Shown: positions 39,966-55,003 of the stretch, piece by piece
How the letters are laid out: each line of letters starts with the position of its first letter
Position numbering within the stretch: the stretch's first letter is position 1
The notes under the pieces: generated by a model
Seen by the model: the letters and a program-made list of their open reading frames with translations, nothing else
Database searches by the model: none
Told to the model about the DNA's origin: nothing
NCBI RefSeq assembly: GCF_902506165.1
Contig: NZ_LR733817.1
Span: forward strand, 5,853,518 to 5,917,517
DNA length: 64,000 nt
DNA from: Bosea sp. 29B
GTDB lineage: Bacteria; Pseudomonadota; Alphaproteobacteria; Rhizobiales; Beijerinckiaceae
Direction of reading: 5' to 3'
Program-made: the position numbers and the translations under genes

Positions 39966-40045
39966 GAGACGGGGGCGTTCGCCGCGAGGCGAGCTGAGAA
40001 GCACCCTTCGAACCTGACCCAGATCATGCTGGCGGAGGGAGTCGC
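39966..40045 (+). promoter_or_regulatory. TPP riboswitch (THI element)
   Basis: Contains the conserved CTGAGA (39994-39999), ACCCTTCGAACCTGA (40003-40017), GATC and TGGCG with GGGAGTC at the end, in thi-box order; GAC at 39968 can pair with GTC at 40041 as P1. It lies between tenA and the permease start at 40102, so thiamine pyrophosphate should turn off the transporter genes. tenA is upstream and outside its reach. Confidence 0.95.
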
Positions 40046-40101
40046 TCGGGGCAGCCTCGCCAGCATTTCCCCGTGCCCGCCTTCCACCGGAAAGGCGGAC
40101 C

Positions 40102-40899
40102 TTGACGACGCAGGACGCGACAGAACGGAACCCGGCTGCCGGCATGAAGCCGGTGATGACCGCGCTCGCCCCTGCCTTGCGCACCATCCTCGTCCTCCTG
40201 CTGGCCTGGCAGGGGGCGATCTGGCTGTTCCAGCCGCCGCGCTACATCCTGCCCTCGCCGCTCGACGTGGCGCTGGCCTTCCAGCGCCAGCCCGGCTTTC
40301 TCTTTGGCCACAGTCTGACCACCATCGCGGAGATGGCGCTTGGCTTCGTGCTCGGCTCGCTGTTCGGAGCGCTGACGGCGCTCGCCATCGTGGCGCTGCC
40401 GCGGCTCGGGCGCCTGCTCTGGCCGGTCCTGCTCGTGCTCCAGTCCTTCCCGGTCTTCGTCATCGCACCGCTTCTGGTCGTCTGGTTCGGCTTCGGCATG
40501 GGCTCGAAGGTGATCATGGCGACGATCATCATCTTCTTCCCGGTCGCCTCCGCCTTTACCGACGGCCTGCGCCGGACCGATCCCGAACTGATCGACGCCA
40601 CCGCGCTGACATCGGCGACGCATTGGCAGACGCTGCGTTATGTCCGCCTGCCCCTCGCCATGCCGAGCCTGCTCACCGGCCTGCGGGTCGCAGCTCCGCT
40701 GGCACCGCTCGGCGCGGTAATCGGCGAATGGGTTGGTGCCTCCGCCGGGCTCGGCTTCGTCATGGTCCAGGCCAATGCCCGCATGCAGACCGACACGGTC
40801 TTCGCCGCGATGACCGTGCTCGCCGTGCTCAGCCTCGTCCTGCGCCATCTCGTCGATGCGCTCGGCCCGCGCCTGCTGCCCTGGACGAGCGAGCCGTGA
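40102..40899 (+). CDS. thiX: ABC transporter permease for thiamine precursor (ThiX-like)
   Basis: 265-aa permease of the BPD type, about six helices. The EAA loop is seen in DATALTSATHWQTLRYVRLPLAMPSLLTGLRVA (about 180-210). The start was set at the TTG at 40102 with aaaggcgga before it; an ATG at 40144 would shorten it by 14 residues. Being right after a TPP riboswitch and before a ThiY-like binding protein, it probably moves HMP or a formylaminopyrimidine thiamine precursor. No ATPase gene is present. Confidence 0.92.
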   Translation: MTTQDATERNPAAGMKPVMTALAPALRTILVLLLAWQGAIWLFQPPRYILPSPLDVALAFQRQPGFLFGHSLTTIAEMALGFVLGSLFGALTALAIVALPRLGRLLWPVLLVLQSFPVFVIAPLLVVWFGFGMGSKVIMATIIIFFPVASAFTDGLRRTDPELIDATALTSATHWQTLRYVRLPLAMPSLLTGLRVAAPLAPLGAVIGEWVGASAGLGFVMVQANARMQTDTVFAAMTVLAVLSLVLRHLVDALGPRLLPWTSEP

Positions 40900-40943
40900 C
40901 GCCGCCCCCTCCTCAAGCCGATCACGCAGAAGGATTTCGCCTG

Positions 40944-41903
40944 ATGACCCTCCGCGCCCTCTCCAGACGCGCTCTGCTCGCCACGGGCCTCGCTTTGGCT
41001 GCCGGCCTCGCCAGCCCGGCCCGCGCCGCCGACAAGCTGACCGTGATGCTCGAATGGTTCGTCAACCCTGATCACGCGCCGCTGGTCGTCGCGCAGCAGC
41101 TCGGCCTGTTCAAGGAAGCAGGGCTCGAGGTCACCATGGTGCCGCCCTCCGACCCCTCGGCCGTGCCGCGCCTCGTCGCCGCCGGGCAGGCTGACATCGG
41201 CATCCACTACCAGCCCAATCTCTATCTCGACCACGCCGCCGGCATCCCGATCGTCCGCGTCGGCACACTGGTCGAGACCCCGCTCAACAGCGTCATCGTC
41301 AAGGCCGATGGGCCGATCAAGTCGCTCGCCGATCTCAAGGGCAAGACGATCGGCTACGCCGTCTCGGGCACCGAGACCACTTTGCTCGGCCAGATGCTGG
41401 CCAAGGCCGGCCTCAAGCTCGACGACGTCAAGCTCGTCAACGTCAACTTCGCGCTCTCGGCCGCGCTGATCGGCGGCAAGGTCGACGCCACCATTGGCGG
41501 CTACCGCAATTTCGAGCTGACCCAGCTCAAGCTAGAAGGCCATCCCGGCACGGCCTTCTATCCCGAGGAGCACGGCGTTCCCGCCTATGACGAATTGATC
41601 CTGATCGCCCGCCGCGACGGGCTCAACGACAGCCGCCTGCCGCGCTTCCTCGACGCGATCGAGAAGGCGGCGCTTTACCTCACCAACCACCCGCAGGAGG
41701 CCTGGAAGCTCTTCATCGCCGCCCATCCCGATCTCGATGACGCCCTCAACCGCCAGGCCTGGACCGACACGCTGCCGCGCTTCGCCAAGCGCCCGCGCGC
41801 TCTCGACCAAGGCCGCTACGAGCGCTTCGGCGCCTTCCTCGTCGAGCGCGGCCTGATCCAGAAGGCGCCGGCGCTCGCCGAGATCGCCGGCGAGGTGAAG
41901 TAG
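40944..41903 (+). CDS. thiY: Thiamine-precursor substrate-binding protein (ThiY/NMT1-like)
   Basis: 319-aa periplasmic binding protein with a Tat-like signal (LSRRALLATGLALAAGLASPARA, about 6-28). The N-terminal mature segment KLTVMLEWFVNPDHAPLVVAQQLGLFKEAGLEV is the classic NMT1/THI5-like start that binds the pyrimidine; GVPAYDELILIARR and WTDTLPRFAKRPRALDQGRYERFG are also family-like. Starts 45 bp after thiX and is controlled by the same riboswitch. Confidence 0.93.
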   Translation: MTLRALSRRALLATGLALAAGLASPARAADKLTVMLEWFVNPDHAPLVVAQQLGLFKEAGLEVTMVPPSDPSAVPRLVAAGQADIGIHYQPNLYLDHAAGIPIVRVGTLVETPLNSVIVKADGPIKSLADLKGKTIGYAVSGTETTLLGQMLAKAGLKLDDVKLVNVNFALSAALIGGKVDATIGGYRNFELTQLKLEGHPGTAFYPEEHGVPAYDELILIARRDGLNDSRLPRFLDAIEKAALYLTNHPQEAWKLFIAAHPDLDDALNRQAWTDTLPRFAKRPRALDQGRYERFGAFLVERGLIQKAPALAEIAGEVK

Positions 41904-42080
41904 CCGGTGGATAGGCGGCAGCAGCTTCACCAGCCGCCGCCCCCATCCCGCGTCCACATCAGGGCGGCCCTGTGCTGTTTGCTCTGGGTTCTTCGCCGAT
42001 CGCGATGCTATGAGCCGACTTTGCAGCTATCCAGCGGGCCCTCGCCCGCCCTCCGGGCTGCCTCCGGTGACATCAGCCGC

Positions 42081-43304
42081 ATGAACGCCAGCCAGCCGAT
42101 CGCCCAGACCCGCCGCGCCGACCTGCCGGTGCTGTTCGTGCTCAGCGCGACGCATCTGCTCAACGACATGATCCAGTCGCTGATCCCGGCGATCTACCCG
42201 ATCATCAAGACGGCCTATGCGCTCGATTTCGGCCAGATCGGCCTGATCACGCTGACTTTCCAGATCACTGCCTCGCTGCTGCAGCCGGTCGTCGGCCACT
42301 ACACCGACAAGAACCCGATGCCCTATTCGATGGTCGTCGGCATGGGCTGCACTCTGACCGGGTTGATCGGCCTCGCCTATGCCGGCAGCTATGCGCTGCT
42401 GCTGATCTCGGCGGCCTGCGTCGGGCTGGGCTCCTCGATCTTCCATCCCGAGGCGACCCGGATGGCCCGCAACGCCTCGGGCGGCCAGCAGGGGCTGGCG
42501 CAGGGCATCTTCCAGGTCGGCGGCCAGAGCGGCGGCGCGCTCGGCCCGCTGCTTGCCGCCTTCATCATCGTGCCGCGCGGCCAGACCAGCGTCGCCTGGT
42601 TCTCGGCCGCAGCCCTGCTCGCCATGGTCCTGATGGTCTGGACGGCGCGCCGCTATGCCGAGCTGAGCAAGGCGGCCGCTGCCGCCGCCGCGGCGAAACC
42701 CGCGAAGGTCGCGGCGGCCGCGCCCGCCACCCCCGCACATTCGAAGGGCCAGATCGTCTTCGCGATCACCATCCTGGTGATCCTGCTGTTCTCGAAGAAC
42801 GCCTATTCGTCGAGCTTCAGCTCCTATTACACCTTCTACCTGATCGGGAAGTTCGGCGTCTCCGTGCAGGGCTCGCAGCTGATGCTGTTCCTCTTCCTCG
42901 CCGCAGCGGCCGTCGGCGCGCTCGCCGGCGGCATCATCGGCGACCGGGTCGGCCGCAACCGCATCCTCTGGTTCTCGATCCTCGGCGCCCTGCCCTTCTC
43001 GCTGATGCTGCCCTTCGCCGACCTGTTCTGGACCGGCGTGCTGACGGTGGTGATCAACCTGATCATGGCGAGCTCCTTCGCCGCGATCCTGATCTACGCG
43101 ATGGAATTGATGCCGGGCCGGATCGGCCTGATCGGCGGGCTGTTCTACGGCCTCTCCTTTGGCCTCGGCGGGCTCGCGGCGGCGATCCTCGGCGAGGTCG
43201 CCGACTGGATCGGCATCGAGGCGGTCTACCGCATCTGCGCCTTCCTGCCGGCGATCGGGCTGCTCGCCTGGTTCCTGCCGAAGGTCGAGCACCGGCGGGG
43301 GTAG
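42081..43304 (+). CDS. fsr: MFS transporter, fosmidomycin-resistance type
   Basis: 407-aa inner-membrane exporter with 12 predicted helices. The N-terminus LPVLFVLSATHLLNDMIQSLIPAIYPI is characteristic of the Fsr group (HLLNDM(I/V)QS); HPEATRMARNASGGQQGLAQGIFQVGGQSGGA is the second conserved block. A central cytoplasmic linker is Ala/Lys-rich (KAAAAAAAAKPAKVAAAAP). The true drug or metabolite is unknown. Two decayed copies of parts of this gene lie at 49214-49296 and 50367-50490. Confidence 0.92.
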   Translation: MNASQPIAQTRRADLPVLFVLSATHLLNDMIQSLIPAIYPIIKTAYALDFGQIGLITLTFQITASLLQPVVGHYTDKNPMPYSMVVGMGCTLTGLIGLAYAGSYALLLISAACVGLGSSIFHPEATRMARNASGGQQGLAQGIFQVGGQSGGALGPLLAAFIIVPRGQTSVAWFSAAALLAMVLMVWTARRYAELSKAAAAAAAAKPAKVAAAAPATPAHSKGQIVFAITILVILLFSKNAYSSSFSSYYTFYLIGKFGVSVQGSQLMLFLFLAAAAVGALAGGIIGDRVGRNRILWFSILGALPFSLMLPFADLFWTGVLTVVINLIMASSFAAILIYAMELMPGRIGLIGGLFYGLSFGLGGLAAAILGEVADWIGIEAVYRICAFLPAIGLLAWFLPKVEHRRG

Positions 43305-43411
43305 GATTCGCTACCGCCGCCAGCAGGACCGGGGTCGGGTCACTCAATCGGGGCAGGCCATCCTTGCGGCAAATTGCCTGCTGCAAGAACGACAATAGGA
43401 CGTGATTTTCA

Positions 43412-43738
43412 ATGATCTACGAAATGCGCGTGTATCGCTGCTTGCCTGGCCGGCTTCCGGCTTTGCTCGACCGCTTTGAGAAGGCCACACTGAAGCTGTG
43501 GGACAAGCACGGCATCCGGCAAGCCGGATTCTTCACCACGCTGATCGGGGAGTCCAATCAGGACCTGACCTATTTCCTGGCCTGGGAATCGCTCGCCGAG
43601 CGCGAGACGAAATGGACGGCGTTCGCGACCGACCCGGACTGGGTCGAGGCGCGCATCAAGAGCGAAGCGGACGGCCAGATCGTTGGCAACATCGTCAGCC
43701 AGATTCTGGCGCCGACGGCCTTCTCCGCGGTCAAGTAA
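43412..43738 (+). CDS. NIPSNAP-family protein
   Basis: 108-aa dimeric ferredoxin-like alpha-beta barrel protein. Typical NIPSNAP start MIYEMRVYRCLPGRLPALLDRFE, then YFLAWESLAERETKWTAFATDPDW. Function unknown in bacteria. It sits about 107 bp after the MFS gene on the same strand; both could be one transcript. Confidence 0.92.
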   Translation: MIYEMRVYRCLPGRLPALLDRFEKATLKLWDKHGIRQAGFFTTLIGESNQDLTYFLAWESLAERETKWTAFATDPDWVEARIKSEADGQIVGNIVSQILAPTAFSAVK

Positions 43739-43770
43739 GCGCCGGGCAGACGATCGCCTGTGCCAGGACA

Positions 43771-43800
43771 AAAGCAGCAAGGGCGATGTCGCCCTTGCTG
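43771..43800 (-). terminator. Terminator-like hairpin between convergent genes
   Basis: An 11-bp perfect stem CAGCAAGGGCG / CGCCCTTGCTG with a 4-nt loop. On the minus strand it is followed by CTTTTG, so it can end the DUF1254 operon; it also follows the NIPSNAP stop on the plus strand. 43801-43975 has no gene. Confidence 0.7.
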
Positions 43801-43975
43801 TCAGGTGAGTTGAAGCCCTTGCGGTTATGCAGCTGTGGCAACGGTCCGGAGTTCGTCGCCGAGGCCAGTCGGGCTTGTAGTATCCCGCCGCGCCGGTTCC
43901 AGCATTCGGCTAACGGCAAGATCGGGTGAAAAGTCACCACCGCTTGCCGTACCAACTGGGCGAGGCTGCTGCGGG

Positions 43976-45007
43976 TTACGATGCCGGCTGCGCCTCCGGG
44001 ATTTTCCACGTGCCGTTCAGGACCTCGGCGCGGGGGCGGTAGAGCCGGAATGTGTAGTTCCACCCCTGCGTGATCGGCAGGCAGTTCGCGATCTTGCCGT
44101 CGCAGCCGCCGAACTGGATGTCGATCGCGCCATCGGCGCTTGTCTTGCCGGTGATGCTGTTGACCGAATAGGCGTCGTAACCGTTCTTCTGGAAGAAGCC
44201 CTTGTCGTTATAGACGCTGATCGACCAGAACGCGTCGACGGGAACGTCCTTGACCCTGAGCTTGTAGACCGTCTTGCCGTCGTTCCTGGCCGGGGTGAAC
44301 GAGGGGTAGGATGCGTCCTTGTCGGGGTTGCCGCCCCAGCCCGCTGCCGTGCCGAGCAGGTGCATCACCGGATCGACCTTTCCCTTCGGGCCGAAAGCGT
44401 TGGTGAAGCTGCCCGATGATGCGGCGGAGAGCGCTTCGAGCGCATCACGGAGCTTCTTCTGTTGAGCCAGGTCCCAGTTCGGAGCCTCGAACTTGCCGGC
44501 CGATTTCTGCTCCACCTTCAGCGCATCCTGCAGGGCGTGAACCTGCGCGAGGTCCTTAGCGTCGTTGGGATCGACAAGGATACGGACCGCAACGAACACA
44601 TAGCGCGTGCCGACCTTGTCCTTGGTGAGCGTCGTACGGCCCGGCTTGTAGACCACCATCGGGGTATAGTGGTCCTCGCTGATGACCTGCATCGAGACGA
44701 AGCGCTTGCCGGCATCGGGAAGGGTGATGGTCACCGGGCCGGCATCGAGGTCGAAGAGCGCCTGGGAATAGAGCGTATCCCGGTTCATCCGGACCACGGG
44801 CTGGTTGTCGATCGGCGTTGGCGTCCTGGTGTGGGCGAACTTGCCGAGACCGCCTGCGTCGACGGTCTTGCGCATGTAGAAATCGGTCTCGGCTCGCTTG
44901 AAATTGCCGACATTGACCGGAACCGACTGCGCGATCGCCACGCATGGCGCAAGAACCAGGAAACCCAGGCTGTAGACCGACTTCATTCGCATTGAACGGT
45001 ACCTCAT
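43976..45007 (-). CDS. DUF1254/DUF1214 exported protein
   Basis: 343-aa exported protein with both domains. Signal peptide near MKSVYSLGFLVLAPCVAIAQ; the N-terminal DUF1254 segment has NFKRAETDFYMRK and VRMNRDTLYSQALFDLDAGPVTITLP; the C-terminal DUF1214 part has VPVDAFWSISVYNDKGFFQKN and NCLPITQGWNYTFRLYRPR. Function unknown; often in envelope or stress loci. The start could be the ATG at 45007, 44992 or 44986. Last gene of a three-gene run with an acid phosphatase and an outer membrane protein. Confidence 0.93.
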   Translation of the reverse strand: MRYRSMRMKSVYSLGFLVLAPCVAIAQSVPVNVGNFKRAETDFYMRKTVDAGGLGKFAHTRTPTPIDNQPVVRMNRDTLYSQALFDLDAGPVTITLPDAGKRFVSMQVISEDHYTPMVVYKPGRTTLTKDKVGTRYVFVAVRILVDPNDAKDLAQVHALQDALKVEQKSAGKFEAPNWDLAQQKKLRDALEALSAASSGSFTNAFGPKGKVDPVMHLLGTAAGWGGNPDKDASYPSFTPARNDGKTVYKLRVKDVPVDAFWSISVYNDKGFFQKNGYDAYSVNSITGKTSADGAIDIQFGGCDGKIANCLPITQGWNYTFRLYRPRAEVLNGTWKIPEAQPAS

Positions 45008-45034
45008 TGGTGCCTTTGATCGATTTGCTCGTCG

Positions 45035-45898
45035 TTACCGCGCAGACAGCGCAGCGGCCTCTGCGGCGCATTCGGAGGCCGAGAGCGGCCGCCTCGCCTT
45101 CGCGGCCTTCACTTCCGCTTTCGCGGCCTTGAGATCGGCGAGAAAGGTCGGGTCGGTCTGCAGCCGCGCCACCGTCGCCGCGCCCATGATCCGCCCGGCA
45201 TCGACATCGCTCTGCCAATGCGCGTTGCAGATCACGCGGCTCTGCCCGAACTCGATGCCGCGCTTGAGCAGCGCATCCGCACGCTCGGGATTGATCTGCG
45301 CGAAGACGAGAGCCCAGCCCCAGCCCGCAGCCGTGTGGCCTGACGGGTAGGAGCCGTCGCTCCGCAGAATGGCCTCCTGATCCGCCCGGCAGGTCGCTTC
45401 GTTGTGCACCATGAAGGGGCGGACCCGGTTGTACTTGTTCTTCACGCCATAGGTGGAAAGGCCGAAATCCGACAGCATCTTCTGCGTCATCGCATAGAGG
45501 CGCGGCGTCTGCTTGCCGTCGATCCTGACACCCATCGCGCAGGAGAAGTTGTCGGCGGCCTGCGGAAAGGCGAGGTCGGCGTCGGTATAGGCGAGCTTCG
45601 AGCGTGCGGTGTCTCGCAAGGGGATCGTCGCCTTGCGCGCTTCCTCGTCCCGGGCCAGCGCAGCAGAACCCGGCTCCGGCGGCGGGCCGAGCAGGATCAG
45701 GCTGTCCGGCAGGTCCGGCCGCTTCAGATAGCCCGGCGCGATCTTGAAATGCGGATCAGTGACCTTGGGCTGCGCTTCGGCCGCTTGCGCCAGGGCCTGC
45801 CCGCAGAGCGCCAGCAGCGCCAGCGCGGAAACGCCTGCGGTCCGAAACGCATTCGCAGTCATCGCCATTCCCATTTCTTTCGACATTGCCGAACTCAT
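45035..45898 (-). CDS. Class A non-specific acid phosphatase (PAP2 family)
   Basis: 287-aa periplasmic phosphatase (PhoN type). A signal peptide follows a Met-rich start (about 1-36, SALALLALCGQALAQ). The catalytic triad of motifs is complete: KKYNRVRPF-like KNKYNRVRPF, GSYPSGHTAAGW, and GQSRVICNAHWQSDVDAGR (KX6RP - PSGH - SRX5HX3D). It dephosphorylates a broad set of organic phosphates. It starts 11 bp after the outer membrane protein gene and ends 27 bp before the DUF1254 gene, so a three-gene operon is likely. Confidence 0.95.
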   Translation of the reverse strand: MSSAMSKEMGMAMTANAFRTAGVSALALLALCGQALAQAAEAQPKVTDPHFKIAPGYLKRPDLPDSLILLGPPPEPGSAALARDEEARKATIPLRDTARSKLAYTDADLAFPQAADNFSCAMGVRIDGKQTPRLYAMTQKMLSDFGLSTYGVKNKYNRVRPFMVHNEATCRADQEAILRSDGSYPSGHTAAGWGWALVFAQINPERADALLKRGIEFGQSRVICNAHWQSDVDAGRIMGAATVARLQTDPTFLADLKAAKAEVKAAKARRPLSASECAAEAAALSAR

Positions 45899-45909
45899 TG
45901 AGGTCTCGA

Positions 45910-46707
45910 TCAGAACCGGTACGTTGCTGCGACGGCGGGCCCATGCTGGGTCACGTCGTACGAGAAACCACCGCTGCGATAATCGACATGGAGCGCCCGG
46001 TAGCCCGCTTTCAGCGTCAGGTTTTCGCTCCAGGCGTAGTTGACGCTGCCCAGGCCCTGCCAGGTCAGGCGCGAGCCGGCCCCGAAGCCGCCGACATCTC
46101 CTGCGAGCGTCAGGCTCCAAGGACCGCCGAGCTTCACGCCGAGGCGGGCGCCGATGACGGGATCGGCCCACATCTCGGATTGACGGTGGTCGATCCGAAG
46201 ATTGGCAAGGCCGGGCAGGACCTCGAGCTTGGTGTTCAGGTTCCAGAACCGGACGCCGCCGCCGACATCGAGCGCAAGCACGCTGTCCTCATAGACCCGG
46301 TAAAAGACGGAGCCCTGAACGGTGGTGGTCTGCGAGCGCAGCTTCAGCCCTGAAAAGAACGGCCCGGGCAGATTGCCTCCGGTCGTCACTTGCGAGAACT
46401 GCCCATCGACAAGAACGCTCCAGCGCTCGATGCGCATCTCGGCAGATGCCATCAGCGCGCCGTTGAGCTCCTTGAGCACGTCGCGGAAGCGCAGGTGGAT
46501 ATCCGCCGCCGGCAGCGGCGGCAGCGTCGCGCTCTTGCCGTCGATGGCCGTCGCCCAGACATAGCTGGTCACCGAAAAGCTCGGTCCCGACGTAAGGACG
46601 GGAGCCGGCGGCGCGGGGGGCTGCCGGAGATCCGATGCCCAGGCCGGCCCGCACAAGGAAGCCACCATCGAGCCGATGGCGAGATTGCGCGCCGTTGCGC
46701 CTGACAT
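45910..46707 (-). CDS. Outer membrane beta-barrel protein
   Basis: 265 aa with signal peptide about 1-24 (SMVASLCGPAWA). Mature region of alternating amphipathic strands ending in the outer-membrane C-terminal signature VAATYRF with terminal Phe. The Pro-rich N-terminal segment DLRQPPAPPAPV is common in alphaproteobacterial porin-like and OMP25-type proteins. Site A upstream (46837-46874) is a candidate operator. Confidence 0.88.
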   Translation of the reverse strand: MSGATARNLAIGSMVASLCGPAWASDLRQPPAPPAPVLTSGPSFSVTSYVWATAIDGKSATLPPLPAADIHLRFRDVLKELNGALMASAEMRIERWSVLVDGQFSQVTTGGNLPGPFFSGLKLRSQTTTVQGSVFYRVYEDSVLALDVGGGVRFWNLNTKLEVLPGLANLRIDHRQSEMWADPVIGARLGVKLGGPWSLTLAGDVGGFGAGSRLTWQGLGSVNYAWSENLTLKAGYRALHVDYRSGGFSYDVTQHGPAVAATYRF

Positions 46708-46836
46708 TGCTGCGTGTCCCCTGCCTTGCCCGCCCTGACGGCACGTGCGCGAACGCTCCGGCTCAGCAGCACGCAATCGCGGCCCGAGCGGCCGGCGACT
46801 ATCGTTGCGAGCATTTCGTGCATGGGCAGCCCGCCC

Positions 46837-46874
46837 GTCTTGCCATTTCGCGCCAATCGCGACCGGCTATTCTT
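46837..46874. promoter_or_regulatory. 38-bp repeated element, site A
   Basis: Almost identical to site B (48076-48113): both carry GTCTTGCCATTT, GCGCCA, and CGCGACCGGCTATTCTT in register, with about 3-4 differences. Site A is about 130 bp upstream of the outer membrane protein start and lies between it and the porin gene. Similarity continues a little 5' (gtgcatgggc). Candidate AraC-family binding site. Confidence 0.6.
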
Positions 46875-46966
46875 TATCTCCGCGGGGCGGAAATCCCCCG
46901 AGTGCCAGCCCTTTGGCGCTGGTTTCACCGGGATGCGGCCGAACCTGTGTTGCATCGCGACTGCAC

Positions 46967-47797
46967 CTATGTCGGAAACAGGAACGTCAACCCCACGCGG
47001 GGCCCCCAGCCGCGCGGTCCGTTCTTCGGCGCAGCCGCCCAATAGCGCACGCCTGCGGAGAGGCTCACCGGCTGCTCGCCAAATTTCACAAGCTTCGAAA
47101 CTTGGAAATTGATCGGCACCGACCATTGTTCGGCCGTCCAGTCATAGGTGCTCTCCGTATTGAGCGTGAACGTCCAGGCGTCCGATGTCCTGTAGGAGAT
47201 GAAGGGCTGCAGGTAGGTCGCGCTGATATCGGACCTGCCTCCCTTCCCCGCAACGGACCAGATGTGGTTTGCAAGCGCGCCGACCGTCCATGGCCCTTCC
47301 TGCTTCAGAACGACGGCAGTCAGACCCATCCCGAACTTGCCGCCTCCGAGCAGATCGTCGGTCGCCGTCGGAAGCAGGAAGACAGGACCTGCTCCCCAGA
47401 TGATCCCGCCAGCGGTCGGCTGTTTCGGGGAAATGAAGAAGCTTTGCGTGACGTCTCCCAGACCGGACTGGTTGCCGGAGGGGCCTGCGATGTCGTGCTG
47501 CCAGATGACCGGGACGACGGTCCGGGAAATGACATTCCAGTCCTCGTTCAATGAAAACGGGATGACCGGTTGGATATCGAGCGTTTTTCGGTCGCCACGG
47601 TTGTTCGGTCCGAAGCCTCGGTCGTAGTTGAACTGGAAGGGCACGCTGATCAGCGATGACACGGGATTGCTGAGCTTTTTCGCCAGCTCGGCAGTCGCGT
47701 CCTGTGCCAGTGCGACACCGGTACCAGTCAAGCCAATGCCTTGACCAACCAATGCGAGGGCCGAGAACACAGACAGTTGGGAGAGTCTCGACAGCAT
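46967..47797 (-). CDS. Porin-like exported protein (transporter/neuromedin-U-like)
   Basis: 276 aa with a signal peptide about 1-32. The mature sequence (LSNPVSSLISVPFQFNYDRGFGPNNRGDRKTLDIQPVIPF) is typical of a family of uncharacterised outer-membrane proteins sometimes labelled transporter or neuromedin U, with a beta-rich body and a C-terminal LTFLFPT. It is divergent from the AraC gene; site B lies between. Confidence 0.85.
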   Translation of the reverse strand: MLSRLSQLSVFSALALVGQGIGLTGTGVALAQDATAELAKKLSNPVSSLISVPFQFNYDRGFGPNNRGDRKTLDIQPVIPFSLNEDWNVISRTVVPVIWQHDIAGPSGNQSGLGDVTQSFFISPKQPTAGGIIWGAGPVFLLPTATDDLLGGGKFGMGLTAVVLKQEGPWTVGALANHIWSVAGKGGRSDISATYLQPFISYRTSDAWTFTLNTESTYDWTAEQWSVPINFQVSKLVKFGEQPVSLSAGVRYWAAAPKNGPRGWGPRVGLTFLFPT

Positions 47798-47966
47798 TCA
47801 GGTCTCCTCAATATGCAATCTCAGAGGGCCATCTGCGGATGGCCGAGCAATTCAATGGCAATCAAAATGGCCCGCGAAGCGGGGCTTCGAGCAGCTTGCG
47901 GTGACGTTCACCGGCCAAATGATGACTGGAAGGCATGCGAGCGCCGGCTTTGCGAATAGGAAGCCC

Positions 47967-48007
47967 CCACTGCCGACTTTCCGTGAGATAGAGGCTCCCG
48001 GCAGTGG
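47967..48007. repeat. 9-bp inverted repeat in the porin/araC intergenic region
   Basis: CCACTGCCG (47967-47975) is the exact complement of CGGCAGTGG (47999-48007), with a 23-nt spacer. It lies upstream of site B. A regulatory site or leader hairpin is possible; no further assignment. Confidence 0.45.
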
Positions 48008-48075
48008 ATGCTCCGTGCGGCGGATCACTTTCGGATCAGCCGACAGGCTCTGTTTGGTGCATGGGCGGGTTGTCG

Positions 48076-48113
48076 GTCTTGCCATTTTGCGCCACCCGCG
48101 ACCGGCTATTCTT
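48076..48113. promoter_or_regulatory. 38-bp repeated element, site B
   Basis: Partner of site A (46837-46874), 77-114 bp upstream of the AraC regulator start and within the divergent porin/araC promoter region, so it could serve both genes. The orientation is the same as site A. It has the GTCTTGCCATTTTGCGCCA core and then CCGGCTATTCTT. Confidence 0.6.
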
Positions 48114-48189
48114 CACGCTCGCCGGCCGCGAATCCTCGGAAGATTCGGCCTTGTGAAAAGCGTCAACGCGGTGACCGCGGCGAGGTCCG

Positions 48190-49188
48190 ATGGCTGATAT
48201 CCCCTTGACGCGCGGCCAGTTCCTGCTGCCCTTCGTCAGTATCCTCGACGATATCGGCGCGCCGACGGAGGCGCTCCTGGAGCGCTCCCGGCTGCCATCG
48301 TCCCTGGCCGAAAAGAGCGAGCTCTATTTGCCGCTTCTGCCGGCGCTGCGTTTCGTCGAGACCGCCCAGAGAACCCAAGGCATCGAGGATTTCGGCTTTC
48401 TCGCTGCCCAGCGCCTGCATTTCTCTCATATGCGGGAAAAGACACGGGCCCTGATCGCGCATTCACCGACACTGCTCGTCGCGCTCCGGCACGCCTGCCA
48501 TGAGGCGTCACGGGAAGACACCATTCTGAGCATGTGGATCGAACATGACGCGGATCATGTTCGGGTCTGCAGCCGGCTTGCGGGGACGGGGCTCCTGCAT
48601 CTGAAATACGCGCAATGGATCCAGAATATCTTCTCGGTCTACATCATCAGGCAATTCGCAGGGCCTGGCTGGATGCCGACGGCGATCGCCTTCGAATCGT
48701 CTTATGCGCCAAGCCCGGCAACGCGATCCTGCTGGCCGAATGTGCGATTCCTGTCGGGCCAGCATGCCGCCTGGATCAGCCTGCCGATCGCGCTGCTCAG
48801 CCTTCCCAACCGGTCGGCCGTCTCGTTTGCGCCGGCAAGGAACCAGGAGGACGGCCCTTCCGCCTACGACATCGTCGAACTGCTCAAGCTGATGCTGCCG
48901 GCCTATCTCGACGAGGGAACCACGGCTCTCGCCGACGTCGCCGAGATCGCGGGCGTCAGCACGCGGACGCTTCAGCGCAAGCTCGCCCTCATCGGCCTGT
49001 CCTATTCGGACATCCTCGACACCGTCAGGTACGAGCATGCGAGCCGGCTGCTGCAGGACACCGATTGCAGGATCATCGACGTCGCCTTTTCCTCCGGCTA
49101 CACCGATCCGGCGCATTTCAGCCGCGCCTTCCGCCGGATGACGGGCATCACGCCGCGCCAGTTTCGCGAGCAATCGCGCCTTGGCTAA
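48190..49188 (+). CDS. AraC-family transcriptional regulator
   Basis: 332-aa regulator with an N-terminal arabinose_bd-type domain (about 15-200; LTRGQFLLPFVSILDDIGAPTEALLERSRLP) and a C-terminal AraC HTH (about 235-332): TTALADVAEIAGVSTRTLQRKLALIGLSYSDIL for the first helix-turn-helix and RIIDVAFSSGYTDPAHFSRAFRRMTGITPRQFR for the second. It is transcribed away from the porin gene and probably governs the porin and the omp/phosphatase/DUF1254 operon, given the repeated element upstream of both. Confidence 0.94.
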   Translation: MADIPLTRGQFLLPFVSILDDIGAPTEALLERSRLPSSLAEKSELYLPLLPALRFVETAQRTQGIEDFGFLAAQRLHFSHMREKTRALIAHSPTLLVALRHACHEASREDTILSMWIEHDADHVRVCSRLAGTGLLHLKYAQWIQNIFSVYIIRQFAGPGWMPTAIAFESSYAPSPATRSCWPNVRFLSGQHAAWISLPIALLSLPNRSAVSFAPARNQEDGPSAYDIVELLKLMLPAYLDEGTTALADVAEIAGVSTRTLQRKLALIGLSYSDILDTVRYEHASRLLQDTDCRIIDVAFSSGYTDPAHFSRAFRRMTGITPRQFREQSRLG

Positions 49189-49213
49189 ACGGCTCCGCGA
49201 TCAAGAGAGCACG

Positions 49214-49296
49214 CCGGCAGGAGCCGGCGCAGGGCTCTTCCAGGTGACGGCCAGAGCGGCGGCGATCCTCGGCGAGGTCGCCGACCGGATCTCGGT
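49214..49296 (+). pseudogene. MFS transporter gene relic 1 (internally deleted)
   Basis: Positions about 49214-49262 match 42484-42537 of the intact MFS gene (gcgcagggc, tcttccaggt, ggccagagcggcggcg), then run at once into the segment matching 43174-43206 (cgatcctcggcgaggtcgccgac). About 640 bp of the gene is missing at a shared gcggcggcg, which suggests a deletion at a short repeat. Not translatable. Confidence 0.75.
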
Positions 49297-49437
49297 AGAT
49301 GTTACTGCCGATAGTCGTTCAAATGCGCGCAAAGGCATCCGGGGCAAGGCTTCCGCCAATTTTATGCAGCCTGCTCGTTGAATTGACCCAATACCTTGAA
49401 GCCACCCGTTGGTTTAAATAGTTTATGGAGCTTCGGA

Positions 49438-49839
49438 ATGGAGCATATCTTGAAGCCCGAGAGCGGCAAGTCTCTCGAGGCAAGCTACAGTGGAACCTCA
49501 TATACAAACGCAAAAGGCAACGCCGAGTGCGTGGAGTTCATTCAGCAGACTCTCAAAGCGCCGCAGACCAGTGCCTGGAAAGAGGGGCGCAAGGTCACCA
49601 AGGACGGCCCCGTGCTTCCGGTGGGCACGGCCATCGCGACGTTCGTTGATGGCAAATATCCGCAGACCGGGAGCACCGGCAAGCACGCGGCGATCTATCT
49701 GGGGCAGGATGCCGTCGGGATTCAGGTCCTGGATCAATGGCGCACGCAAGGGGAAGTCAGACGTCGTACAATTCGCTGGACACCGACAAAATCGGGATTG
49801 AGCAACGACGGCAACGCGTTTTCAGCGATCGAATGGTAG
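49438..49839 (+). CDS. BPSL0067-family protein, putative papain-fold amidase
   Basis: 133 aa. The sequence NAECVEFIQQTL (Cys about 31) and HAAIYLGQDAVGIQVLDQW (His about 82 and the DQW end) give the Cys-His arrangement of the NlpC/P60-like BPSL0067 family. In enterobacteria a member (STY0300) sits beside STY0301, as this gene sits beside a STY0301 homologue. A cell-wall peptide-cleaving effector is the most likely role, but it is unproven. No signal peptide, which would suit delivery by another system. The ATG at 49438 has an SD-like ggag upstream. Confidence 0.85.
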   Translation: MEHILKPESGKSLEASYSGTSYTNAKGNAECVEFIQQTLKAPQTSAWKEGRKVTKDGPVLPVGTAIATFVDGKYPQTGSTGKHAAIYLGQDAVGIQVLDQWRTQGEVRRRTIRWTPTKSGLSNDGNAFSAIEW

Positions 49840-49854
49840 CGAGGCGATAGCGGC

Positions 49855-50277
49855 ATGAGCAGGATTCTAGTTGCAGCGGGGCTGTTCGTGGTCCTCGCCG
49901 GCGAGGCAGTCGCGGCGCCGCAATGCCCGTCCGAAGTGGACACGCAGCAGCAGCTCACGGCGGCCGTTCCGGGCTGGCGCGATCTGCGCAGCAAGACGCC
50001 ACATCGCTTCAGCCAGGTTACGTTCTATGACGGCCAGCCGGCCGAGCAGGTCAGTTTGGCTCCGGACGCGACAAGGAAGGTTAGGGATCGCGAGGTGTCG
50101 ACCTGGCAGTTCGCAAACACATCCGAGCGCCGGGTCTGGATCGAATGCGGCTATGCCGGCACCTCGATCTCATTGGCCCAGGAGCTCCCGGCCGGCACGA
50201 AAAGCTGTTCCGTCAGCTACAATCCCAAAGTCCGCCTGTCGGGCTTGCCGCGGATCGAGCAGTTGGAGTGCAAGTAG
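49855..50277 (+). CDS. STY0301-family protein, putative periplasmic partner
   Basis: 140 aa with signal peptide about 1-21 (ILVAAGLFVVLAGEAVAA-P). The mature protein has the STY0301 pattern: CPSEVDTQQQL, FSQVTFYDGQPAEQVSLAPD, REVSTWQF, VWIECGYAGTSISLAQELP and a final CSVSY. Three paired cysteines may form disulfides. Starts 16 bp after the BPSL0067 gene. Exported partners beside amidase effectors usually act as immunity proteins; that is the inferred role here. Confidence 0.85.
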   Translation: MSRILVAAGLFVVLAGEAVAAPQCPSEVDTQQQLTAAVPGWRDLRSKTPHRFSQVTFYDGQPAEQVSLAPDATRKVRDREVSTWQFANTSERRVWIECGYAGTSISLAQELPAGTKSCSVSYNPKVRLSGLPRIEQLECK

Positions 50278-50366
50278 GTCCTTAGGCAGGCGACAGTCTC
50301 CTCCCGAAGGCCCACTGCCCCACGGAGCCGGGCTTGCCCATCTCGCAATAGGAGATTGGTGCGGAC

Positions 50367-50490
50367 GGCGGCAACCTTCGGCGAGGTCGCCGACTGGATC
50401 GGCATTGAGGTGGTCTATCGGCTCTGCGCCTTCCTGCCGACAATCGGGCCGTTGGCCTAGTTCCTGCCGAAGGTCGAGCATCGCAGGGGG
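50367..50490 (+). pseudogene. MFS transporter gene relic 2 (3' end)
   Basis: Matches the last 120 bp or so of the intact MFS gene at 43174-43304 (gcgaggtcgccgactggatcgg, gcgccttcctgccg, ttcctgccgaaggtcgagca and a final gggggtag) with scattered changes and an in-frame TAG within GLL-AW position (gttggcctag). The similarity continues about 35 bp past the stop. Start of the frame is absent. Confidence 0.85.
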
Positions 50491-50505
50491 TAGGTGCCGC
50501 TACCG

Positions 50506-50835
50506 CTACCGAACGGATCGGCGTCGCGACACCCAAAAGTGCATCGCCAGCGCTGCCGCCGTGCCAATGTTCAAAATCGCCCAGATTTCGCGCTTCATAT
50601 GTAGCGGAGCAACGGGGTTAAAGACCAGGGCCAGCACGGCAAGTATGATCGCCCATACTCCAAGCCCAATGCGCTGATACTCCCCATAGGCGAGATATCC
50701 GGCTGCCGCGCAGACGACGATGCGAAGCATCTGATAGTAGGCGTAAGGCCAAGGCACGAGCGCTAGCAAAAGCAGTGCTATCGGCATCAGCCAGGTGGCG
50801 GGATGAGCTGCGGCGCTCGCACGGGGCCTAGACAT
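50506..50835 (-). CDS. Small membrane protein (DUF6804-like)
   Basis: 109 aa, four hydrophobic segments (WLMPIALLLLALVPW, MLRIVVCAAAGYLAYG, LGVWAIILAVLALVFNPVAPL, IWAILNIGTAAALAMHFWV). The NPVAPLHM motif between helices matches DUF6804 proteins. Function unknown. It starts 1 bp after the end of the frameshifted gene on the same strand. Confidence 0.75.
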   Translation of the reverse strand: MSRPRASAAAHPATWLMPIALLLLALVPWPYAYYQMLRIVVCAAAGYLAYGEYQRIGLGVWAIILAVLALVFNPVAPLHMKREIWAILNIGTAAALAMHFWVSRRRSVR

Positions 50836-50836
50836 C

Positions 50837-51441
50837 TCAGAGCAGCCTCAGTTCGGCTTTAAAGGCGCTGGGGACGAATTCAGCTCCTATAAGCCACTCT
50901 CCCAGAGGCACTGTATCGAACATCATGCTGGTGTCCTCGCCAGTCACCTCCTGCGTGGCAATCTCGATGCTCTTAAGACGAAGTATGGCATCACGAATAT
51001 GCTCGCGAGACCCACTCAGATGCTGCCATATCTTCCTCACATCATCGCGGACATCGGGTACGATTCCGCATCCAACCGTGCACATCCAAATCTCGATGCC
51101 ACGGTTTGTGTCTTTGACGTGCTGAATCGCGAAATCTGGCATCTTTATGCCGAACTTGGGCATCGTCTTCTGCAGGTGCTCGTTCTGGCGGGCCGCGTTA
51201 TTTCGTATCGTCTCAAGCATGCCGTAGAAGCGCACTAGGTCGGCGCGCGTATAATCCAGCGGCCGATCGAGCAAGGTATTGGGCAGCCCCCGTCGTCCGT
51301 CATCGTCAAACGGAACCATTGGGCGAGCATTAGGAGGGTGGCTCGACGAAGGCCGTCAGCCTTCTCCAAATCCCAAAGCACCTCCTTCACGCACATATAG
51401 ACGCGGGCGTTCTCGCTCTTCTTCGCTAACCAGCCTAGCAT
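50837..51441 (-). pseudogene. Hypothetical gene with a frameshift
   Basis: Two overlapping frames form one product: the first (start 51441) gives MLGWLAKKSENARVYMCVKE ... FRLTMTDDGG; the second continues LPNTLLDRPLDYTRADLVRFYG ... AELRLL to 50837. The break is at a C5 run (51287-51291; G5 on the coding strand), and adding one G joins them as TDDGGLPNTLL, so a 1-nt deletion is likely, real or a sequencing artefact. About 200 aa if repaired. No family recognised. Confidence 0.7.
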
Positions 51442-51734
51442 CAGCGCCTCCCCTAAGGCGAACTCGACCCCGCGCTCGCGTTTTAGTCAATGGCTCAGCT
51501 TCAGGCAGCTCTAGTTGGAAGAAACCATGCAAGATTGGTGCGGACAGCGAGGGGACGAACCCACACGCCGTTTCCGGTAAGGCACTTCCAAAACTTCTGG
51601 CCGGCACCTTGGGCCAAGCTGCGCGCGTCCGTTATGAACGAAGGCTCAAGCCTATCGACCTTCACCGGAGTTCGAGCGAAAGCAGGGAGAGCTCTCGGGG
51701 AGCCATAACATTTGTGGAGGAAGTGCTTCAGCCA

Positions 51735-52367
51735 ATGCAGATAAACTCCCAGTTCCCCCGAATTTTTCAAGCCAATATCGACCGCTTTTATCATCGCGTT
51801 GTGAGAGCCACTCTCGACCGCTTGCCTCAGCACGCCGAAGTGATTTTCCGCAATACGGAAACCCATAAAGAACTTCTCGATCAGCTGACTCTCCATATCG
51901 ACAATCACACCGCTCAAGAGGCGCGCCGGTCTTTTGCGCTGCTGCTATGCGGACTTTTCGAACGGCAATTGCGGAGCTGGGCCCGCATTATCTTGCCAGA
52001 TGAGAACAGAAGAGCTGTCGCCAAATGGCCCTTTGTCGACCTGCTGCACAGGACCGCCCACTCAGCTGAGATTGATTTGCAGATCGATGATGTTGGCGAC
52101 ACCATCGAAGAGCTTTTCTTGCTAGCGAACGCAGTAAGACACGGCGACGGAACTTCGTGTACCGCCCTCTATGCACGTTCTCCGCGCTTCTGGGATCACC
52201 TGGACGACCATAGCATCGCGATCACTGGCGATATCGAGATGCTGAGTGAGGCGATCCGAGTGAAAGAGAAAGACATACGCCGATATACGCGTGTCTTAGC
52301 CCAATTTTGGGGGTTGGCCGACAATCTGCAGGGCGCCGAGAAACGCCCCTTTTACTACGAAGAGTGA
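51735..52367 (+). CDS. Hypothetical protein adjacent to tRNA-Leu
   Basis: 210 aa, no family recognised; all-helical in appearance, with LLLCGLFERQLRSWARIILPDENRRAVAKWPFVDLLHR in the middle and NAVRHGDGTSC (reminiscent of RNA- or ATP-handling HEPN-like helices) near residue 136. A possible HEPN-type fold (R-x4-6-H at NAVRHG) is only a guess. It ends 5 bp before the 3' end of tRNA-Leu. Start at the ATG at 51735 with ggagg upstream. Confidence 0.75.
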   Translation: MQINSQFPRIFQANIDRFYHRVVRATLDRLPQHAEVIFRNTETHKELLDQLTLHIDNHTAQEARRSFALLLCGLFERQLRSWARIILPDENRRAVAKWPFVDLLHRTAHSAEIDLQIDDVGDTIEELFLLANAVRHGDGTSCTALYARSPRFWDHLDDHSIAITGDIEMLSEAIRVKEKDIRRYTRVLAQFWGLADNLQGAEKRPFYYEE

Positions 52368-52372
52368 AGCTA

Positions 52373-52675
52373 TGGTGCGGGCGGGGGGAATCGAACCCCC
52401 ACGGGCCGAAGGCCCTACGGATTTTCTTACCCACCACGGCTTTCGCCGCCGCCCCGAAAGGCGTTTGGAGTCTGGACTATCCCTTCACCATAGCGTCTGC
52501 CGTAGGTGCTGCCCGTCTAGTCTCTACACCTTCCCTGAAGCTTGCCGCCTCAGGGCTTGGCTCGGGATCGCCATCTGACAGGATTCCCCGAATTTGAGCA
52601 GTTCTGCATCTGGCGTTTCCGCCGGAGCACTCAATCATTCAAGTCCGATGCGTCTACCAGTTTCGCCACGCCCGC
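52373..52675 (-). tRNA. tRNA-Leu (UAA) gene interrupted by a group I intron
   Basis: Exon 1 is 52641-52675 (35 nt, GCGGGCG start, ends ...CGGACTT); exon 2 is 52373-52425 (53 nt, AAAATCCG start, ends CGCCCGC-A-CCA). Joined they give acceptor GCGGGCG/CGCCCGC, loop CTTAAAA with anticodon TAA, a long variable arm (GGGCCTTCGGCCC) and T arm GGGTTCGATTCC. The intron lies after U34, as in cyanobacterial tRNA-Leu(UAA). One weak U-U at the base of the anticodon stem (27/43). Confidence 0.93.
52426..52640 (-). ncRNA. Group I self-splicing intron in tRNA-Leu (IC3-like, 215 nt)
   Basis: The intron begins GAATGATTGAGTGC: exon ACUU pairs with intron GAGU, giving P1 with U-G at the 5' splice site. The core contains AAATTCGGGGAATCC (P/Q region), GATCCCGAGCC, GTGTAGAGACTAGACGGG (R), and GAAGGGATAGTCCAGACT (S), the P3/P7 elements of group I. 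It ends with G at 52426. No open reading frame for a homing endonuclease is present. Confidence 0.93.
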
Positions 52676-52742
52676 GTGACGTGCACTCGTTAGCCGCGCT
52701 GCTCGCAGCCGACAAGCTCCGATTGAAAGCCGACGGGATCGC

Positions 52743-53393
52743 TCAGCGCCGATGCGCCGGCTTGTACCATTCGACCCCGTCGGGATCGACATAGAGCCCG
52801 GGCGCAACGTCGGCGCCGATCTTCTTCTCCTGCATCGGCACGCGCACCGTGTCGTCGCGGTCGCCGCGGCGGATATAGGGGCCGCTCGCCTGCTGGCTGT
52901 GCTGGCCGCGCCCGCCATCGCCGCCCCCCATCACCGCCCGGCGGGCCGCGACCTTGTCGTCGAGCGCCGCGACCTGGCGCGCCGAGAAGGCGACCTTGGC
53001 CGCCCCCTCGATGATCGGCAGCGCCTTGCCCGCGGAGCCCTCGCCGGTGACGCGGATGCCGACGAAGCGCGGCACGTAAGTCTGTCCGCCGCCGCCGCGC
53101 GCCAACGCATCCCAGCCGCCGGTGGTCGAGACCTGGGCACCGCAGCGCTTATGGGCGCGCTCGCAGGAGGCGCGCGAGGCATAGCGCGGCGCCTTCTGCT
53201 CGAATTCGGCGCGGGCGTTGCGATAGGCATGCTCGCACTGCTCGGCCGAGAGCTTGCCGGCTTCGATGCATTCGTCGCGGCGGACATAGGTCTGGCCGGC
53301 GGCCTGGGCGACGACATCGGCGGGCGTCAGAGCGATCCCGGCCACGGCGAAGGCCGCCGCGCGGGCGAAGACAAGGGGAAGAAGCGTGATCAT
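52743..53393 (-). CDS. DUF1190/YgiB-family exported protein
   Basis: 216 aa with signal peptide about 1-29 (RAAAFAVAGIALTPADVVAQ). The family core has Cys pairs: YVRRDECIEAGKLSAEQCEHAYRNARAEFE and ASRASCERAHKRCG (about 36-85). The C-terminal half is Gly/Arg-rich low-complexity with GGGDGGRGQHSQQASGPYIRRGD. YgiB homologues are envelope proteins of unknown role. Confidence 0.88.
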   Translation of the reverse strand: MITLLPLVFARAAAFAVAGIALTPADVVAQAAGQTYVRRDECIEAGKLSAEQCEHAYRNARAEFEQKAPRYASRASCERAHKRCGAQVSTTGGWDALARGGGGQTYVPRFVGIRVTGEGSAGKALPIIEGAAKVAFSARQVAALDDKVAARRAVMGGGDGGRGQHSQQASGPYIRRGDRDDTVRVPMQEKKIGADVAPGLYVDPDGVEWYKPAHRR

Positions 53394-53422
53394 GCGGCTT
53401 CCCTGAGCATGCGATTGTGGCG

Positions 53423-55003
53423 TCACAGCAGCGGCCTCATCATGATGGCGAGCTCGCGCGTGCCACCATAATCGATCTTGCCGTTGCCGAGCACCGGAAT
53501 CGTGGCGGTGACGAGAATGGCCTTTGGCAGCCACAATTCCGGGAAACCCTGGCGCTTGGCCTCGTCCTGCAGCGCCTTCTTCTCGGCATCGGGCTTTTCG
53601 GTGACGAGGACGAGCTGCTCGCCCTTGCGCAGATCGGGCAGCGCCACGACCACGTGATTGTGACCGGGCCATAAGCCAGCGACCATCGATTCGACCGCCG
53701 CCAGCGAGACCATCTCGCCGCCGAGCTTGGCGAAGCGCTTGGCCCGGCCCTTGATCGCGACGAAGCCGTCATCGATCGCGACGATGTCGCCGGTGTCGTG
53801 CCAGCCGCCCTCCGGCGGCACGATCGCGCCGGGATTGTCGGCGTTGAGATAGCCGAGCATCACGTTCGGCCCCTTCACGCAAAGTCGTCCACCCTCGGTG
53901 ATGCCCTCGACCGGCTCGAGCCTGGCCGTGATTCCGGGCAGGAGCCGGCCGACCGTGCCCTCGCGCATCGCCACCGGCGTGTTGCAGGCCAGCACCGGCG
54001 AGCACTCGGTGCAGCCATAGCCTTCGAGGATGGTGGTACCATAGGGCTCCCACATCCGGCGTGTCTCAGGCTTCACCCGCTCGGCCCCGGCGACGACATA
54101 GCGCACGCTCTTGAGGTCGCCCTCATCCGCAGCGCGCGCATAGCCTTGGAGAAAGGTATCGGTGGCGAACAGGAAGGTCGCGCCGGTCTCCCCGATCAGC
54201 TTGGGCACCTGCTTGTAGTGCAGCGGGCTCGGATAGAGCACGACCTTCATGCCGTGCGTCAGCGGCATCAGCAGCGCCGCCGTCAGCCCGAAGGAGTGGA
54301 AGGCCGGCAGCGGGTTCATGACGATGTCGCGCTCGCTGAGGAAGCCGGCGGCGAGCTGGAAGATCTGGTTGGCGTTGGAGACCAGATTGGCGTGGCTCAG
54401 CACCACGCCCTTGGGCTTGCCCTCGGTGCCGGAGGTGAACAGCACGACCGCCGGATCGTCGGGCCTGGCCGCATGATTGCGAAGAACCAGCCCGGGCGCC
54501 AGCGAGGCGAGCGCGCCGAGCGCCTTGTCGAGGCTGGTCAAGCCCTTGCGGACATCTTCGAGATAGATCACCCGCCGCCCCGGCGCGAGCGCCTCGACGA
54601 TGTCGTCGAGCTTGGCCTGGTCGATGAAGCGCCGCGAGGTGACGATCGTCGAGATCGGCCCGATCTCGCAGGCGGCGGTGAGGTTTTTCAGGCCGGCGGT
54701 GAAGTTGAGCAGCGCCGGCACGCGGCCATAGGCAGAAAGCCCGAACAGCGTCACCGCCATGCCCTGGACGTTGGGCAGCATCAGCCCGACCTTTTCGCCC
54801 GGCCTGGTCAGCCCCGAAAGCTTGCGGCCGAGCACCAGCGCGCCCAGCACCAGACTGCCATAGCTGAGCGGCTTGCGCTCCGGATCCTCAAGCGCGATGC
54901 GGCTCTTGCCGTGCTTGCCGGCAGCCGCCAGCAGCGCCTGGAACAGCGTTGTCCTGGCGGCTTCGACGTCGAAGGGCTGTGCCGGCAGTTCGATCGCGGC
55001 CAT
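53423..55003 (-). CDS. AMP-binding acyl-CoA/acyl-ACP ligase
   Basis: 526-aa adenylating enzyme of the ANL superfamily. The P-loop motif is VVLFTSGTEGKPKGVVLSH (about 186-204), the second core is YGCTECSPVLACNTP, then the adenylate motif LCVKGPNVMLGYLN and the C-terminal hinge GGWHDTGDIVAIDDGFVAIKGRAKRFAKLGGEMVSL. The catalytic Lys is in PVLGNGKIDY near the end. Overall this matches the ligase half of Aas-type acyl-ACP synthetases, so fatty-acid activation for phospholipid remodelling is plausible; no acyltransferase domain is fused. Confidence 0.92.
   Translation of the reverse strand: MAAIELPAQPFDVEAARTTLFQALLAAAGKHGKSRIALEDPERKPLSYGSLVLGALVLGRKLSGLTRPGEKVGLMLPNVQGMAVTLFGLSAYGRVPALLNFTAGLKNLTAACEIGPISTIVTSRRFIDQAKLDDIVEALAPGRRVIYLEDVRKGLTSLDKALGALASLAPGLVLRNHAARPDDPAVVLFTSGTEGKPKGVVLSHANLVSNANQIFQLAAGFLSERDIVMNPLPAFHSFGLTAALLMPLTHGMKVVLYPSPLHYKQVPKLIGETGATFLFATDTFLQGYARAADEGDLKSVRYVVAGAERVKPETRRMWEPYGTTILEGYGCTECSPVLACNTPVAMREGTVGRLLPGITARLEPVEGITEGGRLCVKGPNVMLGYLNADNPGAIVPPEGGWHDTGDIVAIDDGFVAIKGRAKRFAKLGGEMVSLAAVESMVAGLWPGHNHVVVALPDLRKGEQLVLVTEKPDAEKKALQDEAKRQGFPELWLPKAILVTATIPVLGNGKIDYGGTRELAIMMRPLL

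Follow-up and report, generated by a model that had tools for sequence, protein, structure and literature searches.

A group I intron in the tRNA-Leu(UAA) gene of Bosea sp. 29B that probably arrived with foreign DNA displacing the native tRNA half

On the minus strand of the window, by which we mean the whole 64-kb stretch of DNA analysed here, Bosea sp. 29B carries a tRNA-Leu(UAA) gene of 303 nt (52675-52373) that is split by a group I intron. The 5' exon (52675-52641, 35 nt) extends from tRNA position 1 to U34 and ends in CTT, the intron fills the following 215 nt (52640-52426), and the 3' exon (52425-52373, 53 nt) encodes the CCA end and is of a foreign type by identity comparison. When the exons are joined, ARAGORN recognizes the resulting 88 nt as a tRNA-Leu(taa) with a cloverleaf, which bears out the original prediction of two halves that join after U34 into a complete tRNA-Leu(UAA) with CCA; the 215-nt intron that it placed within 52373..52675 proves exact to the base, and the strand is added here. 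Run on the whole window, the same program does not list the split gene, and when given the unspliced gene with introns allowed it returns a wrong tRNA-Phe. The Rfam model RF00028 matches 52453-52650 with 53.1 bits (E 9.5e-12) over its full length (model positions 1-253 of 253), compared with a gathering score (cut-off) of 50 bits; this is the covariance-model check that had been proposed for the group I identity, and it supports that identity. The other predicted hallmarks are present as well: a P1 in which exon CTT pairs with GAGT of the IGS (GAGTGC), with a U-G pair at the 5' splice site; the core's R and S elements (52474-52526, minus strand), whose pattern TAGAGACT...ATAGTCC has one match in the 64 kb and 0 in 100 shuffles; and a terminal G that closes the intron. 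At 215 nt the intron is too short to leave room for an endonuclease gene, in keeping with the predicted absence of an endonuclease frame.

The intron assignment draws in addition on a consensus fold. The 20 alphaproteobacterial tRNA-Leu introns used for it, of 22 intended (L086 and L089 were left out), score -119.2 compared with -63.6 (sd 3.5) in 20 column shuffles, with two-sided change in 18 of the 56 pairs. Splice sites were read with a script that often gave several solutions per locus, of which the one with the shared splice motif was taken; for the window locus the alternatives beside the Leu reading were a Gln and a Pro reading. A tmRNA identity for 52344-52447 was considered and rejected, as the Rfam matches there fall below cut-offs and overlap the 3' half of the tRNA. 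We conclude that the tRNA-Leu(UAA) gene very likely contains a working, self-splicing group I intron. In the folding pre-tRNA, P1 (exon CUU with IGS GAG) and the core would position the splice sites, guanosine would attack behind U34, and the freed exon would then attack behind the terminal G, as the structure implies. Joining of the exons would yield the tRNA-Leu(UAA) that the cell needs for reading UUA.

The genome seems to have no tRNA-Leu(UAA) gene besides this intron-bearing one. The 6.33 Mb of Bosea sp. 29B, nearly all of them in one contig, hold one RF00028 match in total. A second tRNA-Leu(UAA), which the original prediction had named, together with unspliced RNA only, as a finding that would speak against it, is absent from the 43 tRNAs found with RF00005, and the intronless pattern has 0 matches in the whole genome. 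The tRNA list itself has a gap, because tRNA-Ile(GAU) and tRNA-Ala(UGC) were not found among the 43 either, perhaps because an rRNA operon is masked or collapsed. Since ARAGORN lists no tRNA-Leu(UAA) here, the genome can seem to be without an essential tRNA.

Immediately upstream, the minus strand encodes a DUF1190 protein and an AMP-binding ligase (52743..55003; Pfam and congener alignment), both native; the ligase is 73-94% identical to Bosea proteins, in agreement with the alphaproteobacterial host that had been predicted. The native tRNA-Leu adjoins the same two genes in 7/7 aligned congeners, and the intron-bearing gene therefore stands at the native locus. This upstream side is collinear with the congeners, at 88-91% for G028, G035 and G003 and 77-83% for the other five aligned, and in G035 native DNA resumes 79 nt behind the tRNA. 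A different arrangement is seen in congener G013 (locus L067), where the ligase lies on the 3' side of the tRNA-Leu and on the opposite strand, so that the tRNA seems inverted relative to its usual neighbours; locus L055 of congener G002 is alike. By pattern search, an intronless tRNA-Leu(UAA) is present in 34 of 36 congeners; the pattern can mislead if an intron starts with AAAA (as in G059). No pattern-positive congener has a group I match in tRNA-Leu, the match in G036 being in tRNA-Arg. The two congeners without the intronless pattern are G015, which has an intron of its own, and G030, a genome of 94% completeness in which RF00028 finds nothing.

Between the native 5' side and a decayed remnant of the native tRNA lies a foreign unit of 1,053 nt, made up of the intron, the foreign 3' exon and 785 nt behind the tRNA. 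These 785 nt have a GC content of 54.1%, compared with 68.6% upstream and 61.0% in the native DNA downstream. The remnant (51533-51587, minus strand) corresponds to the native tRNA-Leu(UAA) 3' half, from tRNA position 37 to CCA, together with native flank. It was found by alignment to congener genes, short exact words not having shown it, and its local alignment score of 64 (68 with flank) compares with a maximum of 32 in 200 shuffles covering 40001-52372 on both strands. The remnant is 73-85% identical to the native genes of seven congeners, and the window's 3' exon is 64-73% identical to these same genes; with intron-bearing genes elsewhere the 3' exon shares 78-87% identity in seven of nine cases, the other two being L032 (71%) and L033 (61%).

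The borders of the unit are defined less sharply than its interior. The 5' exon is identical to the seven congeners' native genes at 31 of 35 positions and to the intron-bearing genes L141, L098 and L204 at 34 of 35, and because it is thus nearer to some intron-bearing genes, the gene may be foreign as a whole. The promoter spacer of 66 nt is similar to that of the four nearest congeners, with 1-2 of 300 shuffles equally good; it has no clear likeness to the other three (26-88 of 300) and resembles none of nine intron-bearing genes (24-300 of 300). The exon and spacer comparisons leave the left border anywhere in 52641-52741. A search for clean direct repeats at the unit ends brought up no shared exact word longer than 11 nt, the native half being decayed and beginning at about tRNA position 34-37. 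All six PF00589 (tyrosine-type integrase) matches of the genome lie outside the window.

Farther downstream, a second native tRNA-Leu tail (CCGCCGTCCGCACCA; 50357-50371, minus strand) is followed by native downstream DNA. Aligned to congener G035, this tail scores 45 against a maximum of 26 in 500 shuffles, and only its last 9 bases are specific, because its first bases are shared with a neighbouring repeat. Its presence suggests that more than one insertion has struck the tRNA-Leu locus. The position 50371 had been a candidate for the end of the foreign segment and was displaced by 51587 once the remnant alignment was known. The repeat that abuts the tail (50368-50506) and a second stretch at 43176-43304, each about 130 nt long, resemble the same DNA of congener G028 and each other, and one of the two is therefore probably a partial copy.

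Convergent with the tRNA lies an accessory gene of 211 aa (51732..52367, plus strand), and a longer frame of 362 aa that opens with TTG (51279-52367, plus strand) extends across the tRNA remnant. A search of 5.8 billion database proteins gave 96 of similar length for the 211-aa protein, its own record included, and the gene occurs in 5 of 385 genomes of the class, again including Bosea sp. 29B. The 362-aa frame has no Pfam match, and neither frame has a PADLOC match.

We propose that the intron came with foreign DNA that displaced the native tRNA half, as a tRNA-targeting element would, and we put the probability of this reading at roughly 0.8. The order of events can be read and tested at this locus, since congeners show the empty site and the window shows both the foreign unit and the displaced native half. 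Against the reading count the lack of a PF00589 match in the window and of a clean direct repeat around the unit, and the likeness of the 5' exon to some intron-bearing genes. Foreign DNA comprising the intron, a foreign tRNA 3' half and the accessory gene would have entered the native tRNA-Leu, most likely in the anticodon arm, leaving the native promoter side in place, while the native 3' half would have ended up some 0.8 kb away on the downstream side and decayed. Such a scar would be of the type left by a tRNA-targeting mobile element that restores the tRNA with a 3' half of its own. The displaced half, the foreign 3' exon and the native flank are seen directly; from them we infer the recombinase and the order of events. 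We do not class the segment as an island, because an integrase was sought and not found. Of the earlier suggestion that the intron was transferred, the transfer is supported and the idea of a lone intron falls away, because foreign origin extends to the 3' exon and to the DNA that follows, and because the displaced native 3' half sits downstream.

On a different course, a distant donor would have supplied the whole intron-bearing tRNA gene through ordinary recombination, homologous or illegitimate, in which one crossover fell upstream and another inside the tRNA and no tRNA-targeting recombinase took part. We regard this as possible and rather doubtful: the 34/35 identity of the 5' exon to L141, L098 and L204, a window free of PF00589 integrase and a distal border at 50371 that resembles a microhomology junction would all fit, but the spacer is like that of the nearest congeners and unlike that of intron-bearing genes, the anticodon arm is where the break falls, a position shared with G007, and low-GC cargo arrived too. 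Entry of the intron alone, by reverse splicing or homing, with the adjacent mobile DNA as a separate event, is improbable. The related tRNA-Arg(CCU) intron of congener G036 implies that such introns change host gene, but an intron arriving by itself would leave exons of the congener type, in contrast to the foreign 3' exon and the displaced native one seen at this locus, and 215 nt cannot accommodate an endonuclease. For this locus it is hardly credible that the tRNA-Leu(UAA) intron was inherited vertically from an ancient ancestor in common with cyanobacteria and then lost from most congeners. Passages of PMC4033280 place the intron of cyanobacteria and plastids in the same host tRNA, but 34/36 congeners have an intronless gene, which in the seven that were aligned occupies the same locus, and the displaced native half argues that the ancestor here had no intron.

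The tRNA-Leu locus takes insertions in the genus Bosea. Congener G007 has a copy of tRNA positions 27-87 located 4.2 kb downstream of an intact gene, G002 has a tyrosine integrase enclosed by two tRNA-Leu copies, and G015 has an intron of another type at the same locus with arsenic genes behind the tRNA; ArsH, Acr3, ArsA and an arsenite methyltransferase score over NCBIfam cut-offs, and an ArsC-like protein scores below. A stretch of 4,479 bp containing the intron-split tRNA-Leu is 99.9% identical between G015 (L394 8555-13033) and the metagenome-assembled genome (MAG) AGun1 (L120 3522-8000), whose upstream DNA, over 3.5 kb, has no match to G015 or to the AMP-binding ligase. Such identity is consistent with tRNA, intron and cargo having recently been transferred together; alternatively, because AGun1 is filed as Bradyrhizobiaceae, it may be a close relative with a rearranged upstream side.

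The scar in the window is clear, and a general rule for intron-bearing tRNA-Leu genes is only suggested. Among intron-bearing genes, 3 of 57 have a displaced 3' half in the 2 kb downstream, as does 1 of 88 intronless genes, a difference that is not significant (Fisher p 0.30); among the three, L436 is weak (score 32, shuffle maximum 27), and the intronless case is a complete second tRNA. Of the intron-bearing tRNA-Leu genes of genomes, 6 of 64 have an integrase no more than 1.4 kb away, compared with 0 of 103 intronless ones (Fisher p 0.003). This excess is no more than suggestive: the sets are of different taxonomy, the integrase profile was home-made (it took in 4-12 hits from these same loci), the flanks often span only 1.5 kb, and the integrase is upstream of the tRNA in all six cases, whereas in a classical island it would be at the 3' end. 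Group I introns in bacterial tRNA genes are patchy in distribution and, at this size, without room for an endonuclease, which makes their movement hard to see. As a tentative and rather unlikely generalization, endonuclease-free bacterial tRNA introns might mainly be passengers of mobile DNA that targets or carries tRNAs, with a cassette replacing the native gene, and an intron in the anticodon loop could shield the new tRNA. If this were true, shielding from the next element would be a reason for the tRNA-intron pair to persist, the anticodon loop being a possible integrase landing site.

The original prediction implied that such an intron is rare in Alphaproteobacteria, which the survey does not support: RF00028 matches occur in at least 31 of 385 class genomes and at least 34 of 398 phylum genomes, in scans whose filters lose weak matches, and 16 of the 30 class loci typed are tRNA-Leu(UAA), including the doubtful L081. 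Three class loci (L080, L103, L104) lack the shared splice motif. Introns of this kind in tRNA-Leu(UAA) occur patchily in Alphaproteobacteria and other bacteria, and also in phage contigs and plasmids, with at least 64 intron-bearing genes from genomes, at least 83 from viral contigs, at least one from a phage and at least one from a plasmid; duplicates were removed before counting, the near-identical L033 and L120 were both kept, and two resistance-plasmid loci were left out. When 125 introns, trimmed of their P1 end, were placed in a tree (phage introns dereplicated from 81 to 45, L248 dropped), the window intron fell beside L032 and L135 among alphaproteobacterial tRNA-Leu introns; resolution is low, with 17 of 120 inner branches reaching 95. 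Among the sequences compared, none of them cyanobacterial, this placement points to alphaproteobacterial tRNA-Leu introns as the nearest kin. A phage origin of the window intron was considered and rejected, as most phage introns stand apart in the tree and the window intron stands with the alphaproteobacterial ones, in a poorly resolved topology. Cyanobacterial introns had 0 matches among the viral contigs searched.

Several other introns lie in other tRNAs or replicons. The tRNA-Arg(CCU) intron of congener G036 (L034) falls inside the Leu introns in the tree, which fits a change of host gene, and the tRNA-Leu of that congener is itself intronless. Group I introns in alphaproteobacterial tRNA-Lys (L084, L090, L092, L102, L106) sit after position 34 or 35, with splice sites partly read by eye, and form one tree group, and the introns typed as Ile/Met(CAU), L249 and L253, are on long branches elsewhere. 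Phage contigs (L228-L242 and L265-L384, from IMG/VR; L399) carry a split tRNA-Leu(UAA) in 7/18 and 51/80 cases among the matches listed; the longest such contig measures 490 kb, and Agrobacterium phage Atu_ph07 matches too. In Gordonia phage Daredevil (L398 2711-2733, 2883-3193), a tRNA-Lys(UUU) read by eye is seemingly intron-split at the anticodon loop, the splice script returning no solution for it, and it adjoins an integrase and an intronless copy of the anticodon arm that resembles an attachment site. Among plasmid records, 1,284 of 72,556 match the window tRNA gene, most of them from Escherichia, Klebsiella, Salmonella and Acinetobacter, and in 6/6 inspected (L385, L386, L446-L449) an aminoglycoside-resistance gene annotated as aac(3)-II is found 0.7-1.2 kb from the match. 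The sequence of L385 reads as a complete intron-split tRNA-Leu(UAA) at 5001-5301; its intron falls among the alphaproteobacterial ones in the tree and is 84% identical to L120, a kinship that may hint at the origin of that plasmid region.

In the literature, searched at the level of titles and abstracts and with partial coverage, we found no alphaproteobacterial tRNA-Leu(UAA) intron or integration scar. Vepritskiy reportedly described, in 2002, a tRNA-Leu intron in a gammaproteobacterium. The title of Rudi 2002 points to a proposed transfer of an entire tRNA-Leu locus, intron included, and the protection of split tRNA genes from integration is attributed to Randau and Soell in passages of PMC4033280. 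A 2014 review (PMC3984707), in the sections available, has phage introns all in protein genes. For cyanobacteria, portions of PMC5733544 describe introns of 22-49 nt in tRNA-Lys, -Arg and -Gly, and what is accessible of PMC4476775 likewise concerns cyanobacteria.

Set beside known systems, the window intron has a first counterpart in cyanobacteria and plastids, where an intron lies in tRNA-Leu(UAA) according to passages of PMC4033280. The two are alike in host tRNA and group I class. The cyanobacterial site is between U34 and A35, and the cyanobacterial P1 presumably reads GAGCC compared with GAGTGC in the window. A second counterpart is the alphaproteobacterial tRNA-Arg(CCU) intron of Agrobacterium and of Bartonella (BbgpI), which shares the class, the host group and a related core, and whose gene, like that in the window, is detected by a tRNA finder only when spliced; it differs in its host tRNA and in its site, after position 36 rather than 34. 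Splicing of BbgpI has been shown experimentally, with self-splicing in vitro and splicing in vivo in the available parts of PMC7717549, whereas splicing of the window intron is predicted. The tRNA-Ile(CAU) intron of Azoarcus differs in tRNA and site. Its R-to-S core is very similar to that in the window, and the IC3 subgroup label given in the original prediction would agree with the Azoarcus features. Finally, tRNA-targeting genomic islands share with the window a displaced native 3' half, a restored tRNA and low-GC cargo; unlike them, the window has no integrase left, and its restored tRNA has an intron. The intron is thus of a known kind, and the new part is how it got here, with the scar of its arrival well preserved.
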